DNA from: a virus | Length of the DNA stretch: 41,908 nucleotides | IMG/VR virus record: IMGVR_UViG_3300006028_000009 | Span: 1-41,908 of that record | Direction: 5' to 3' (one strand) | In this document: positions 3,107 through 41,908 of the stretch, in pieces | Layout: each line of letters begins with the position of its first letter | Position numbering within the stretch: the stretch's first letter is position 1 | Made by a program: the position numbers and the translations under genes | The notes under the pieces: generated by a model | Seen by the model: the letters and a program-made list of their open reading frames with translations, nothing else | Database searches by the model: none | What the model was told of the DNA's origin: nothing

Positions 3107-4015
3107 TTGAGCAGTATTGGGCAGGTATTGTCTTCAGCGTCCGGCACAGCAGGGCGGCCACACGGTCCTAAAAAACCTCTCGAAGAGTTGCTCGACGCGT
3201 ACGTCAAGTACCGCGCCGAGCGGATTGGCCTTCATCAGCCCGCGGAAAAAGAATCCCGCGAGGGCTTTCGCAAGAAGGTAGGCCTGTCCGACCAGGGGCT
3301 GCGCGACTACCTGAAACACGCGAACTTGCCATTTCCGCTGCTGCCTATCGACAGAGACACCGGCAAGGAGCTGCTCGTCTGCACCATCTGGGGCCAGCCG
3401 CCGTACGACATCACCTGGATCATCCCGTCGGTTCGCGACGTCCTGAGTTGCGATCCCGCTGATCTGGTGGGTCACGGCTGCGCCCTGCCGCTACTCCGCG
3501 GAAACAGTGCTCGCCTCGAAGCTGAGCACACGACCATGATCCAGCGACTGCGCACCGATCCACAATTCGTCCAGGCTGAGTTCAGCACTACGCTGCACCG
3601 ACGCTCAGACAACGCGCAGCTACCCGTGGACGTCGTGGTGCGCTACACGGGCAAAACCCACGACAGGTTCTACTGCGTCGCGCAGATTACGGGTCCCGCG
3701 ATCGTCCCGCCAGTCGCTGAAACCTTCAACACGACGGGTGAGATTTTCCGCTTGCGCAAGGAGAGCAACACGTTCACGTACACACCTCCGTTGAACCTCA
3801 CGCCTCCTGACCTGCAGGCTCCCGGCCAGTTCGTGTTCAACCCGCCGTCCACAGGTCGGTACGTGCTGGCACCGATGCCGAGCATCGCGGTTGTTCCCCC
3901 CGGCTCGCCGATCCTCCTGCAAAACGGCCGCGGCTCGTACGCGGAACCACACCACACATGTTTGGGCTACGACTCGGGCAGAGCATGCAAAGCATGCGAA
4001 ATAAGGGCCAGGTAA
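3107..4015 (+). CDS. PAS-domain sensor/regulator with N-terminal HTH-like segment
   Basis: 302-residue protein in the lysogeny region. Residues about 88-196 read as a PAS domain: ITWIIPSVRDVLSCDPADL then VG matches the conserved front of the fold. The back half, TLHRRSDNAQLPVDVVVRY and FYCVAQITG, matches the beta-sheet end. Upstream, residues about 52-75 (EGFRKKVGLSDQGLRDYLK) look like a helix-turn-helix. The C-terminus carries His282/283, Cys285, Cys294 and Cys297, a possible metal site. The start is TTG at 3107, preceded by AAAGGGA. A phage-coded PAS protein next to the repressor suggests that a small ligand, redox state or light tunes the lysis/lysogeny choice. That role is inference; the PAS reading is reasonably firm. 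Confidence 0.75.
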   Translation: MSSIGQVLSSASGTAGRPHGPKKPLEELLDAYVKYRAERIGLHQPAEKESREGFRKKVGLSDQGLRDYLKHANLPFPLLPIDRDTGKELLVCTIWGQPPYDITWIIPSVRDVLSCDPADLVGHGCALPLLRGNSARLEAEHTTMIQRLRTDPQFVQAEFSTTLHRRSDNAQLPVDVVVRYTGKTHDRFYCVAQITGPAIVPPVAETFNTTGEIFRLRKESNTFTYTPPLNLTPPDLQAPGQFVFNPPSTGRYVLAPMPSIAVVPPGSPILLQNGRGSYAEPHHTCLGYDSGRACKACEIRAR

Positions 4016-35904: not shown

Positions 35905-35942
35905 ACTAGCGCGCGGGTCTTCACAGCACCCGGCAGCCATAG

Positions 35943-35975
35943 AGCCCCCGGCAGGTCGACTTGCCGGGGGCTTTC
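35943..35975. terminator. Strong hairpin terminator between convergent operons
   Basis: AGCCCCCGGCA (35943-35953) pairs perfectly with TGCCGGGGGCT (35962-35972) over an eight-base loop, followed by TTTC on the plus side. It lies between the rightward GP88 operon (ends 35904) and the end of the leftward early operon (35980), and should stop at least the rightward transcript. Confidence 0.85.
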
Positions 35976-35979
35976 TGGT

Positions 35980-38207: not shown

Positions 38208-38881
38208 CGCTCGCCAGGCGGCGGCAACTGCAGCGGATAAAACCGCTCAGGACCACTCAGCGACGGTGCCGTCCGCCAGCGCGTGACGGCGTCCGACGTC
38301 GTCTGGAAGGCGGCCGTCACCCCGGCCGGCGTCGGCGACCAGCTCAGCGTGTGGAACGGACCGATGCCCATGTCCTGGCCGGTGGGCGGCACGTGCCAGT
38401 TATCCAGATCGGTGCCCAGGTAGGCAAACGTCCAGTTGCCCAGCCGCCGCTTGGCCTCGATCCGCGCTCTGACGCTGGCCAGGGTGATGTGCTTCGGGCT
38501 GGCGTTTTCGAGTCCGTCGGTCTGGATGACCAGCAGTGCCCGATCCTGGCGCCGCACGAACTTCTCCATCCGCCCGATGGCGGCCATGACCGCGGCCAGC
38601 AGTGGCGTGTCGCCCCGCGGACGGTAGTCCAGCCGCTCGAGCGCACGCCCTGATTCAGTCCTGGGCGCCGCCGTGTCGAACAGCGTGGTCATCTCGAGCT
38701 CGCCACTGCGCGCCGCGGTGCCGAACTGCACCACGCTCAGACGCGTGTTCAAGTGGTCGCGATGCCCACGAATGAACGCCTGCAGGCCGCTCAGCGTCGG
38801 CTCCTGAATCGTCTCCATGCTGGCCGAACGGTCGACCAGCAACATCACCCACGCCAGCGACTCGAGCGCGAGCGTGCTCAT
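38204..38881 (-). CDS. VWA-domain protein with MIDAS motif, 225 aa
   Basis: Single von Willebrand A domain. The metal site is intact: LLVDRSASME gives Asp17-x-Ser19-x-Ser21, GDTPLLAAV gives Thr92, and VIQTDGLENAS gives Asp122. Divalent metal and a partner acidic residue normally bind here. Bacterial stand-alone VWA proteins often pair with AAA ATPases or act as adaptors; no AAA partner is encoded nearby, but the gene is coupled by ATGA to the J-domain gene. ATG 38881 follows GGAGG. Unknown function in a phage early operon. Confidence 0.85.
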   Translation of the reverse strand: MSTLALESLAWVMLLVDRSASMETIQEPTLSGLQAFIRGHRDHLNTRLSVVQFGTAARSGELEMTTLFDTAAPRTESGRALERLDYRPRGDTPLLAAVMAAIGRMEKFVRRQDRALLVIQTDGLENASPKHITLASVRARIEAKRRLGNWTFAYLGTDLDNWHVPPTGQDMGIGPFHTLSWSPTPAGVTAAFQTTSDAVTRWRTAPSLSGPERFYPLQLPPPGER

Positions 38882-39438
38882 ACCTCCACCTCCTCTGTCA
38901 GGCGTTGCTTGAGCTGGTCGTACGCCTGTCGGATGCGCACGAACTCCGACACCGTGCCGCCCATGTCCGGGTGGTGCGTGAGCGCCAGCCGACGAAACGC
39001 ATGGGTGGCGTCCGCGAGCGTGCACGGCCAGCTCAGGCCTAGCTCGGACAGCCACACCTCCGAGGGGCTGGCTAGCGGCTGGAGTTGTTGCTGGCGCGCC
39101 CAGGCCGCGTCGTATTCCTCGCCGCCAGCGCCGGGCGCCACGCCGACGCACGTGTCCAGGTGACAGGTCCACGTCGCGACGTCGCCCTCGACGTCCATCG
39201 GGCGCCGTTTGCCGGTGTACGTCGTCTCCCACCACACCCGCGCGTTGCAGGCGCGGCAGGCGCTCACACGGTGGCGAGTGCTGGCACTATCGGTGACCCA
39301 ATCCTGCGCCGCGCACGTCTCGAAGTGCGACTGCTGCTCGTCCGCGTCGTCGAATGGGAAGGCTCGACCCGTGCCGAAAGGACTGGTGCCCCACCAGATC
39401 CGACCCCCGCAGCGCTTGCAGCGACCCCAGCCAGCCAT
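38878..39438 (-). CDS. J-domain (DnaJ-like) protein with zinc ribbons, 186 aa
   Basis: Co-chaperone that would recruit host DnaK. The C-terminal third is a J domain: WLSELGLSWPCTLADATHAF, then FRRLALTHHPDMGG with the essential HPD (residues 156-158), and FVRIRQAYDQLKQRL. The first half has Cys pairs (Cys7/Cys10, Cys61/Cys64, Cys92/Cys97) and Trp-rich motifs, likely zinc ribbons that hold a client. The ATG abuts the 108-bp inverted-repeat element with no ribosome site. It overlaps the VWA gene. Lambda-type phages use DnaJ/DnaK at the origin; here the phage brings its own J protein. Confidence 0.85.
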   Translation of the reverse strand: MAGWGRCKRCGGRIWWGTSPFGTGRAFPFDDADEQQSHFETCAAQDWVTDSASTRHRVSACRACNARVWWETTYTGKRRPMDVEGDVATWTCHLDTCVGVAPGAGGEEYDAAWARQQQLQPLASPSEVWLSELGLSWPCTLADATHAFRRLALTHHPDMGGTVSEFVRIRQAYDQLKQRLTEEVEV

Positions 39439-39546
39439 TTATTTCGTGTTTTTTCTCGCGCGCGAGGGTTGTGAAATCGACTTTTTTGCAAAACGCCGGT
39501 TTTTGCGTGTTTTCAACCCTCGCGCGCGAGGAAAAACACGAAATAA
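39439..39546. repeat. 108-bp element with 33-bp inverted repeats
   Basis: Left arm 39439-39471 and right arm 39514-39546 are inverted copies with one mismatch over 33 bases. The 42-base middle is A/T-rich and has its own small dyad GCAAAAcgccgGTTTTTGC. Each arm holds the perfect palindrome CTCGCGCGCGAG. It fills the gap between the PrimPol stop and the ATG of the J-protein gene. It lacks a T-run, so it is not a simple terminator. A replication origin, a recombination substrate, an RNA control hairpin or a miniature inverted-repeat insertion are candidates. Confidence 0.9.
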
Positions 39547-39551
39547 TTCAG

Positions 39552-41741
39552 TCACACGGCCATCCATGTCTCTGCCGGGCGTCCGCGCCCGCTGGTTGAC
39601 GTCGAAACGCTTGCTAAACCGGCCCCCTGCAGCAGTGCCAGCGCACGGCTGATCGCCGCGCTGTTGACGTTTCTGCCCAGGTAGCGCGAGATCTCCGTCC
39701 GCGTCATCGGCCCCTCGGTGCGCAAGCCGAGCAGCAGGTCGTCGGCGTGCCGATCGCCGACGATATCGCCGAAGATCCAGCGACACGTACGCTCGACGTA
39801 CGCCCAGATGGCCATGGCTGCCTCGAGGTGTGCCGGACCGATGCGGTTGGTCCGATCGAGCGCGGCCAGGAGCTGGCTGATACGCAGTACCTGCGGCTCG
39901 CTGCGCGCGGTGACGGCGCCATGCATGCCCACACCACCCTGACCCAGGCTGTGGTAAGCCGCTTGCCATACCACCCGCGCCTCGGGCGCCCAGCTCATGT
40001 GGTGCCCGGCCTGCGTCCAGTCAGCCGTCTGGGCCACGACGCTGGCAAAGTTGCCCATCAGAATGGGGTCGACCTCCTCGCCGAAGGGCAGCTCCTGGTG
40101 ACGACGCGCGGCGAACCACAGGAAGCGGTTGGCGAAGCCGTTGACCAGCTCAGTCTGGTCGACGTAGTGCAGGAGCTCGTCGCGGGTCACGTGGCCAGCG
40201 ATGACGACGTGCGCCCCGGTGGCACGCGCCGGTGCCGTCTTGGTCAGCATGCGCAGCACACCCTTCGGCGGCAGGTCCCATGCGCGGCGTAAGACGGCTG
40301 ACAGGGTGTTGCCGTCACGCTGCAGCACCCGCAGCGCGCTGGCGAATTCGGACTCCACCACCAGCAGGCGTTTGTCGTCGATGCCCGGGTCTTCGGTAAT
40401 CCACGTCTGCTTGCGCAGGTCCCACTTCTGGATCGCATCGCGAATCGCCCAGATCACGCCCTCGCCCGAGCTGAGCCCCTCGACGATGTGGTCGACGAAG
40501 ATCGGATCGGCCAGGCGCGCGATCGCCTCGGCGATCTTGCTGGCGCTGCCCTTGCGACCCTTGGCCGTCGGCCCGACGATGACGCTCGACAGACGAATCG
40601 GATGCCACGCGTTGGCCGCGTAGCCGCCGGTCTTCGGATCCAGCGTGGCCGACGTCGCGGACATCGTCATCGCCAGGATGGCGGCCGGGTCGGCTTCGCT
40701 CTGCTGCGCCGCCGCCAACACAAATTCGCCGAGCGGCCCATAAAACGCCACATCCTCGAGTGGCTCTGGCCAGGGCGCATCGACTGGCACCGGTGGCGCC
40801 GCCGCCGTTGCCGCTGACGCGGTCGCGGCGTGGCCGTTCAGGTGGATACGCGGCAGAACGTTGGCTAGCTGGCGCTGGGCCGTCTCGCGATAGCGCCGGT
40901 CACGATCCTTGCGATTGGTGAATTTGGCCAGGCCGAGCGTCTCGTCGCGCTCGCGCAGCGCCTCGATGATGGTCGCTTCGTTGGCGCCGGCCTGGGCCAG
41001 CTCGCCAGCGATCGCCCACAGCGTGCCGCTGCGGTCGGTGGTACCGCGCCCGCCACCCTGCCAGACATACGCGTCGATATCCAGCGGCGGCTCGCCGTTC
41101 TGGCCCAGGATCGCTTCACCCGGCACGCTGAGAGTGGCCGCCGGTGTCCGCCCGTCGACATGATCGATGAGCAACTCGCACGCCCACAGCGGCGGGTCTG
41201 CCGCGGCCGTGTGCGAGTCGTAATTCAGCCAGGCGTAGCGGCCGCCGCTGTAGTGCAGCGTGGGCGGCGCGACGCAGTAGCCCGCCGACAGGATGTCGTA
41301 GTGCTGAGGCAGGCACAGGCGCGCGGCCGGGACGCCATCCAGCAGCCGATACAGGAAATGCTGGTGACCTTCGCCGCCGCCGCTCCGAAATGTCAGCGTC
41401 TCGGGCAGCCCGCGGGCGATGAAGTCCGCCAGGTCGTCCAGGTCGTCGGGCGCAATGTCGAGCAGATGACCGGCCTCCAGCGCGATCGCCACGCCGGCGT
41501 CCGGCCACATGCTCGGACCCCACCACAACCGCACGCGGTCCTCGTCCAGGGTGGCGTCCTTGACCCCGTTGTGCAGATTGCCGTACGGGTGCTTGCCGGG
41601 CGAACACTTCCACCTGGACGGGTCAGGCCCGACTTTGTAGATACGGTCCGGGCAGGAGCACGTGCCACCCACGATCGGGTACAGCGGCAGGACAGGCCAG
41701 CCGCGGCGCACGTACTCGAGCGCCCATTCAAGCGCCGTCAT
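39552..41741 (-). CDS. Bifunctional primase-polymerase/helicase, 729 aa
   Basis: Replication protein. The N-terminal PrimPol domain (about 1-215) has CSCPDRI, CSPGKHPYGNLHNGVKDATL, LLDIAPDD and the catalytic-loop SGGGEGHQHFLYR (His126). The central ATPase part (about 310-640, DUF3987-like) has a P-loop GPTAKGRKGSA near residues 388-398. The C-terminus is a winged helix (TRTEISRYLGRNVNSAAISR). ATG 41741 is chosen because it begins the conserved MTALEWALEYVRRGW; longer readings overlap VRR-NUC. Odd: the usual Asp-x-Asp at the metal site reads Asp95-Ile-Ala97. It is downstream of VRR-NUC and upstream of the J protein. Confidence 0.9.
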   Translation of the reverse strand: MTALEWALEYVRRGWPVLPLYPIVGGTCSCPDRIYKVGPDPSRWKCSPGKHPYGNLHNGVKDATLDEDRVRLWWGPSMWPDAGVAIALEAGHLLDIAPDDLDDLADFIARGLPETLTFRSGGGEGHQHFLYRLLDGVPAARLCLPQHYDILSAGYCVAPPTLHYSGGRYAWLNYDSHTAAADPPLWACELLIDHVDGRTPAATLSVPGEAILGQNGEPPLDIDAYVWQGGGRGTTDRSGTLWAIAGELAQAGANEATIIEALRERDETLGLAKFTNRKDRDRRYRETAQRQLANVLPRIHLNGHAATASAATAAAPPVPVDAPWPEPLEDVAFYGPLGEFVLAAAQQSEADPAAILAMTMSATSATLDPKTGGYAANAWHPIRLSSVIVGPTAKGRKGSASKIAEAIARLADPIFVDHIVEGLSSGEGVIWAIRDAIQKWDLRKQTWITEDPGIDDKRLLVVESEFASALRVLQRDGNTLSAVLRRAWDLPPKGVLRMLTKTAPARATGAHVVIAGHVTRDELLHYVDQTELVNGFANRFLWFAARRHQELPFGEEVDPILMGNFASVVAQTADWTQAGHHMSWAPEARVVWQAAYHSLGQGGVGMHGAVTARSEPQVLRISQLLAALDRTNRIGPAHLEAAMAIWAYVERTCRWIFGDIVGDRHADDLLLGLRTEGPMTRTEISRYLGRNVNSAAISRALALLQGAGLASVSTSTSGRGRPAETWMAV

Positions 41742-41769
41742 CACGGCGCACACAACTTCTGTTGGGGCC

Positions 41770-41908
41770 TCATGCTGCGAACTCCTGAACAATCTGATCG
41801 AGCATCGAGGGACGCCACACGTCGACGTCCGCGCCCGCGGCGGCCAGCTTGCGCTGCCAGAACTTCTGGTGACGGCTGACCTGGCCAACCTCGGTTTTCA
41901 GCTCGCGG
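41770..41908 (-). CDS. VRR-NUC nuclease, C-terminal part (second copy of the end repeat)
   Basis: This is the last 45 codons of the nuclease that begins at 353, seen again because of the terminal repeat. It ends at TGA 41770-41772, which defines the C-terminus IVQEFAA. It is not a separate gene. Confidence 0.9.
   Translation of the reverse strand, partial: RELKTEVGQVSRHQKFWQRKLAAAGADVDVWRPSMLDQIVQEFAA
41789..41908. repeat. Right copy of the 120-bp direct terminal repeat
   Basis: Exact repeat of bases 1-120. It should be trimmed to obtain the unit genome of 41,788 bp. Confidence 0.97.

Follow-up and report, generated by a model that had tools for sequence, protein, structure and literature searches.

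A 108-bp inverted repeat between the PrimPol and J-protein genes of a phage as a probable replication origin, and 9-bp units that covary with initiator residues

The Sulfolobus plasmids pRN1 and pRN2 use a stem-loop type of origin, which has also been proposed for Bordetella phage BIP-1 (PMC4234260, PMC3869888). These two reports describe the pRN1 origin as a 100-bp stem-loop immediately 3' of the PrimPol gene, on which replication depends and which remains functional after being moved. The PICI origins are located just 3' of the initiator gene, where two iteron sets flank an A+T-rich region (PMC6092414), and the C-terminal domain of SaPI Rep recognises iterons (PMC7581432).

The stretch of DNA analysed here, called the window, is the whole 41,908-nucleotide virus record IMGVR_UViG_3300006028_000009 (positions 1 to 41,908). 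It carries a 108-bp inverted repeat between a PrimPol gene and the gene for a J-domain protein. The computation covered the repeat and the conservation of its place, a winged-helix fold predicted for the PrimPol, the inverted 9-bp units found across the PrimPol/DUF3987 family and the covariation between protein residues and unit bases. The 108-bp element is probably the replication origin of the phage, with the adjoining PrimPol as its initiator, and this reading is the most likely because of the precedents in pRN1, PICI and SaPI. The features are listed below by window coordinates and strand.

39439-39546, no strand: inverted-repeat element, 108 bp, proposed replication origin (basis: the repeat and a homologous element in relative L003)
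39439-39471, plus: left arm, 33 nt
39514-39546, minus: right arm, 33 nt, complementary to the left arm at 32/33 positions
39439-39447, plus: 9-bp unit TTATTTCGT, proposed site of the PrimPol winged helix
39538-39546, minus: 9-bp unit TTATTTCGT, inverted partner
39455-39466, no strand: CTCGCGCGCGAG, left arm
39519-39530, no strand: CTCGCGCGCGAG, right arm
39472-39513, no strand: A+T-rich core, G+C 0.38, proposed melting region
38878-39438, minus: J-domain protein gene, directly after the element
39436-39438, minus: ATG of the J gene
39552-41888, minus: PrimPol gene (MCM-like helicase and winged helix, TTG start), proposed initiator
39552-39554, minus: PrimPol stop codon
41184-41723, minus: Prim-Pol (AEP) domain, residues 56-235 (Pfam PF09250)
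39768-40739, minus: MCM-like AAA+ helicase domain, residues 384-707 (structure model)
39555-39752, minus: C-terminal winged helix, residues 713-778 (structure model)
39669-39671, minus: Asn740 codon, covarying with unit base 9 (Asn with T, His with C)
39687-39689, minus: Ser734 codon, covarying with unit base 5

The inverted repeat and its neighbouring genes

The arms were 97% complementary across a 42-nt spacer and formed by far the best inverted repeat of the window; the runner-up was 25 nt at 80%, and the chance expectation for such repeats in a sequence of the same length and composition was about 1.7e-10. The first-pass annotation had described these 33-bp arms and a copy of CTCGCGCGCGAG in each, and both descriptions were borne out, with no other exact copy of CTCGCGCGCGAG in the window. 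As single-stranded DNA the element gave a fold z of -7.6, beating 200/200 shuffles, and its minus-strand RNA gave a fold z of -7.8. In a folding-energy scan the raw RNA energy of the element was unexceptional for this G+C-rich genome; it stands out as an inverted repeat. The core has a G+C content of 0.38 versus 0.65 for the genome. A separate inverted repeat of 21 nt, with no spacer and 86% complementarity, was seen at window positions 35937-35978 and is possibly a terminator.

Both flanking genes are on the minus strand. The element begins 5 nt past the PrimPol stop codon, occupies most of 39439-39551 and directly abuts the J start (39438). It had been noted at the outset that the element fills this gap and meets a J ATG with no ribosome site; this holds for the window, and no Shine-Dalgarno sequence precedes the J gene in the window or in its closest relative, L003. 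A strong G+C-rich stem after a gene suggests a transcription terminator, but on both strands the T tracts lie before the arms and the A tracts behind them, opposite to the order in an intrinsic terminator, and the stem sits within a run of genes that share one direction. We regard a terminator as very improbable.

The place of the element between co-transcribed genes also suits an RNA stem, acting through RNase III cutting, message protection or translational coupling of the PrimPol stop to the J start. The minus-strand RNA fold, the covariation of the arms and the ending of the stem at the J ATG fit such a role, and the first-pass annotation had offered an RNA switch on J as its second reading. 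In two phages the stem does adjoin the J ATG; in a third and more distant one, L016, the stem is kept despite an ordinary ribosome site for J outside it. The sole mismatch of the arms is a C-A on the message strand, and a G-U pair forms on the other strand only. No Rfam family reached its gathering score (best 36.4 bits against a threshold of 117, for a miRNA hairpin model), and the conserved words correspond to DNA units in which the sequence tracks a protein residue, as described below. An RNA stem as the main function of the element is therefore improbable; as a second function, though not needed, it could coexist with an origin, because in both the window and L003 the stem runs up to a J ATG that has no ribosome site.

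The J proteins of the window and five relatives have Cys-rich, zinc-finger-like stretches and a C-terminal J domain, which contains an HHPD motif and scores below the Pfam cut-off. Relatives of the J gene are located after differing replication genes, and none were found in the GTDB genomes searched.

The PrimPol was modelled with AlphaFold2 from a 34-sequence alignment (mean pLDDT 81.8); confidence was low for the first ~47 residues, which may not be part of the protein. The top-ranked Foldseek matches of the model were MCM chains, and the helicase domain matched MCM helicases with Z 18.5 and an rmsd of 4.0 over 274 residues at 10% identity. A search of solved structures by sequence gave no match. 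The C-terminal winged helix was confidently modelled; Ser734 sits in the second of its helices, and Asn740 immediately precedes the third. At residues ~143-150 of the window protein, motif I of the primase domain is LLDIAPDD; the L003 protein has LVDIAPDS, and most of the domain-bearing relatives have LDxD. The second catalytic Asp appears to be replaced by Ala in the window and L003, and primase activity may be lost or altered; priming activity is uncertain because motif I is DIAPD and not the usual DxD, a point against the origin reading.

The element in related loci

The closest relative of the locus, L003 (IMGVR_UViG_3300017528_000368), has a PrimPol 67-68% identical and a J protein 82% identical to those of the window. 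The gap between its two genes holds a homologous element of equal size at the same position. The arms have changed together, from TTATTTCG/CGAAATAA in the window to TTAATTCG/CGAATTAA in L003, a compensatory change of T-A to A-T. Within the CTCGCGCGCGAG words the halves that pair across the arms were kept in L003 and the local palindromes were lost. The core words GAAAA(A)CACGCAA and GTCGATTTC (minus strand) were conserved between the two; the innermost 7 bp of each arm and the dyad inside the core were not. Of the A/T-rich core with its own dyad, as first annotated, the base composition and the dyad are thus present in the window, and the dyad is not kept in L003. GTG was tried as a conserved priming motif and rejected, the GTG of the window arms being GTA or lost in L003.

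A more distant locus, L016/L028 (IMGVR_UViG_3300049734_000489), is placed by the tree as a well-supported (starred) sister to the pair of window and L003. At the same place it has a 44-nt inverted repeat, 89% complementary, that shares TTCGT..TTTTTCC/GGAAAAA..ACGAA and holds several TTCGT units and repeated AATTCGT words. Its PrimPol-like frame (L028 5204-7141, L016 1869-3806) has no in-frame N-terminal primase domain, through either a frameshift or a real loss.

Other J loci lack the element. It was absent at the J loci of L004, L017 and L026, and L005, which has a different PrimPol-DUF3987 gene, carries CTTCTGTCA repeats before the J gene. Because J loci with other upstream genes do not have the element, it goes with the initiator gene and not with J. 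In L005 we also observed, at 3818-3990 before the J gene, CCTTCTGTCACA repeats and a 19-nt inverted pair 105 nt apart, possibly a different iteron set. No comparable long inverted repeat lay directly after the gene in known phages with related helicases (Thermobifida P318 and Streptomyces Ibantik, Success and Ponzi) or in a PrimPol phage of Arthrobacter.

These absences, together with the compact inverted-repeat shape, might indicate a MITE-like mobile inverted repeat inserted between the two genes. However, the virus record of 41,908 bases holds the element once, and no dispersed copies were found in that record or in the viral contigs, where the only other copy lies at the same place in L003; the remaining matches to the pattern CTCGCGCGCGA..TCGCGCGCGAG in viral contigs resembled coding sequence or a direct repeat. 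The element has diverged along with its neighbours, and the L016 counterpart differs in length and sequence with its place kept. A mobile insertion has scarcely any likelihood, and the copy-number check suggested in the first-pass annotation came out in favour of an origin.

Nine-bp units and residue-base covariation across the family

Searching with the PrimPol alignment yielded 22 viral and 80 genomic loci, from which 94 distinct regions directly 3' of the stop codon formed the test set. In the first 60 nt the identity at a lag of 9 was 0.372; a lag of 18, twice as long, gave 0.305, and the remaining lags 0.25-0.29. Past the stop, 43.6% of the 94 loci had a 9-bp tandem triplet (z at least 3.5), versus 1.3% of 374 control windows taken from the same loci, and the signal peaked in the first 50 nt. 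More than half of the relatives had no clear array directly after the stop, and in a few the words lay elsewhere. In L113 and L115, TTWWTTCGT arrays were seen upstream of the initiator gene and not after it (L115: 739-765 and 813-843), so array position can vary. In BPP-1 the 200 nt that follow the gene showed no clear array of 9-bp units.

The units were mostly in inverted arrays, with at least three units per side at 18 loci. Two classes were distinguished: in one, units pointing one way come first and the gap between arrays is 61-123 nt; in the other, the opposite orientation comes first and the gap is mostly 17-19 nt (123 at one locus). The similarity of mirrored units was 0.82, compared to 0.78 for non-mirrored pairs. 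Since mirrored units are barely more alike than others, the behaviour of the units is closer to that of binding sites than to that of a perfectly paired hairpin, which also counts against the RNA stem considered above.

The base at the end of the unit followed one residue of the winged helix. Of 95 proteins aligned over the C-terminus, 44 have Asn and 48 have His in the residue-740 column. Units were called blind to the protein, by a caller that takes words ending in CG followed by C or T; at loci with a unit z of at least 4, the Asn proteins had CGT units at 24 of 25 loci and the His proteins CGC units at 29 of 30 (53/55 overall; Fisher p = 2.4e-13). Among 162 alignment columns, residue 740 scored z 48 against base 9, and the second-ranked column scored 4.0. 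For residue 734 (Ser/Arg/His) the z values were 8.2 with base 5 and 6.0 with base 6. A tree built from the helicase part, with the winged helix left out, required at least 17 changes of residue 740 and at least 16 of base 9. Independent pairs on well-supported branches alone gave 5 changes in the same direction, 0 opposite and 2 without difference (p = 0.0625), which is not significant because the pairs are too few; with all branches, including poorly supported ones, the counts were 15, 0 and 2. A held-out set of 19 further loci from other genomes was also scored, and all 8 that reached a unit z of at least 3 followed the Asn/His rule (p = 0.029).

In detail, Asn740 goes with T and His740 with C at base 9, and Ser734 goes with T and Arg734 mostly with G or C at base 5. 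Asn commonly contacts adenine and His guanine in protein-DNA complexes, which fits the A or G opposite the last base of the unit. We lean towards the view that a two-residue recognition code links the winged helix of MCM-like initiators of phages and mobile elements to their 9-bp origin units across many bacterial phyla, and that stem-loop origins such as those of the window and pRN1 are inverted arrays reduced to a palindrome. To our knowledge, the origins of nearly all uncultivated phages are unknown. If the code holds, the origins of phages, prophages and islands with DUF3987/MCM-like initiators could be predicted from the initiator sequence, and origin compatibility and exchange could be studied in silico.

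For the window protein, with Ser734 and Asn740, the predicted unit has T at base 5 and a CGT end. The form TTWWTTCGT, found in several Asn/Ser members of the family, occurred exactly twice in the 41,908 bp, at the outer 9 bp of each arm (0.09 expected); it was picked after the arms had been seen, and the count is therefore a consistency test and not a blind prediction. Each L003 locus examined had the two words as well, and no others. In the window and in L003 the two words are 90 nt apart and oriented like the class with the long gap (61-123 nt). The blind unit caller missed both TTATTTCGT in the window and TTAATTCGT in L003. Three tandem units per arm were not found in the window or L003, which have one exact unit per arm, and the second 9-mer of the window arm, GTTTTTCCT, agrees with the first at just 6/9 bases; the L016/L028 repeat does have repeated units. 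Because of the single exact unit per arm, the miss by the blind caller and the lack of a clear array in over half of the family, the window element is a divergent member of the inverted 9-bp array pattern and not a textbook one.

The proposed origin and its relation to known systems

The covariation suggests that the winged helix of the window PrimPol binds the element, and origin activity would follow by analogy with the precedents. The C-terminal winged helix would read TTATTTCGT at the outer end of each arm, and the inverted arrangement would seat two helicase rings face to face over the A+T-rich core. The core would then melt, directly or as a cruciform, and priming could start.

The origin reading of the first-pass annotation was strengthened by the conservation of the element 3' of the initiator gene, the inverted 9-bp units in relatives and the residue-base covariation. 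The GC-skew check suggested with it showed nothing clear, the skew having no distinct turn at 39.5 kb. That lack of a turn would suit a PrimPol binding site with another job (operon autoregulation, copy control or partition) and an origin elsewhere, as would the words located away from the 3' end of the gene in some relatives; moreover, the covariation argues for binding by the winged helix and not for initiation itself. However, the sites come after and not before the initiator gene and flank an A+T-rich core, and this layout is that of proven origins (PMC4234260, PMC6092414). A binding site with another job is unlikely, less so than an RNA stem, and an origin remains the preferred reading.

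Among systems set beside the window by description only, the alpha protein of phage P4, which acts with origin repeats, likewise combines priming, helicase and winged-helix origin binding in one protein (PMC4234260); unlike that of the window, its primase is of the bacterial Toprim type. Phage NrS-1 also has a PrimPol, and this enzyme starts at the template motifs GTG and TTTGGTTA; the accessible part of that report describes no inverted iteron array (PMC8718748).

The closest likeness in form is to pRN1. In both, a gene for a PrimPol with helicase and winged helix (in the window by PF09250 and the structure model) lies directly upstream, and a stem-loop of ~100 nt lies within ~60 nt past the stop, its structure kept in the window, L003 and L016 as the sequence diverges. 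The pRN1 stem is 21 nt with a 58-nt loop, compared to the 33-nt arms and 42-nt loop of the window, and the helicase of the archaeal plasmid is described as SF3, whereas the window model matches MCM AAA+ proteins (Z up to 18.5; a match to an unlisted family is possible). The arm sequences differ, and PMC4234260 reported no iterons. The stem arms of pRN1 and pRN2 (L129, L133) each contain two 9-bp direct repeats around GTCC with 7/9 matches, which as a match to the family units is suggestive but weak. The available portions of PMC4234260 and PMC3869888 do not mention these repeats.

The likeness to SaPI and PICI lies in the position of the origin, proposed for the window, immediately 3' of the initiator helicase gene, in the iteron sets around an A+T-rich region, seen in many relatives of the window, and in the reading of iterons by a C-terminal domain, which the residue-base covariation suggests for the window and its family. 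Unlike these satellite islands, with iterons compared by description only, the window has a near-perfect palindrome in which each arm holds a single exact unit. If the proposal is true, the stem-loop view of origins drawn from pRN1 and the iteron-array view drawn from SaPI and PICI would be reconciled as one system.
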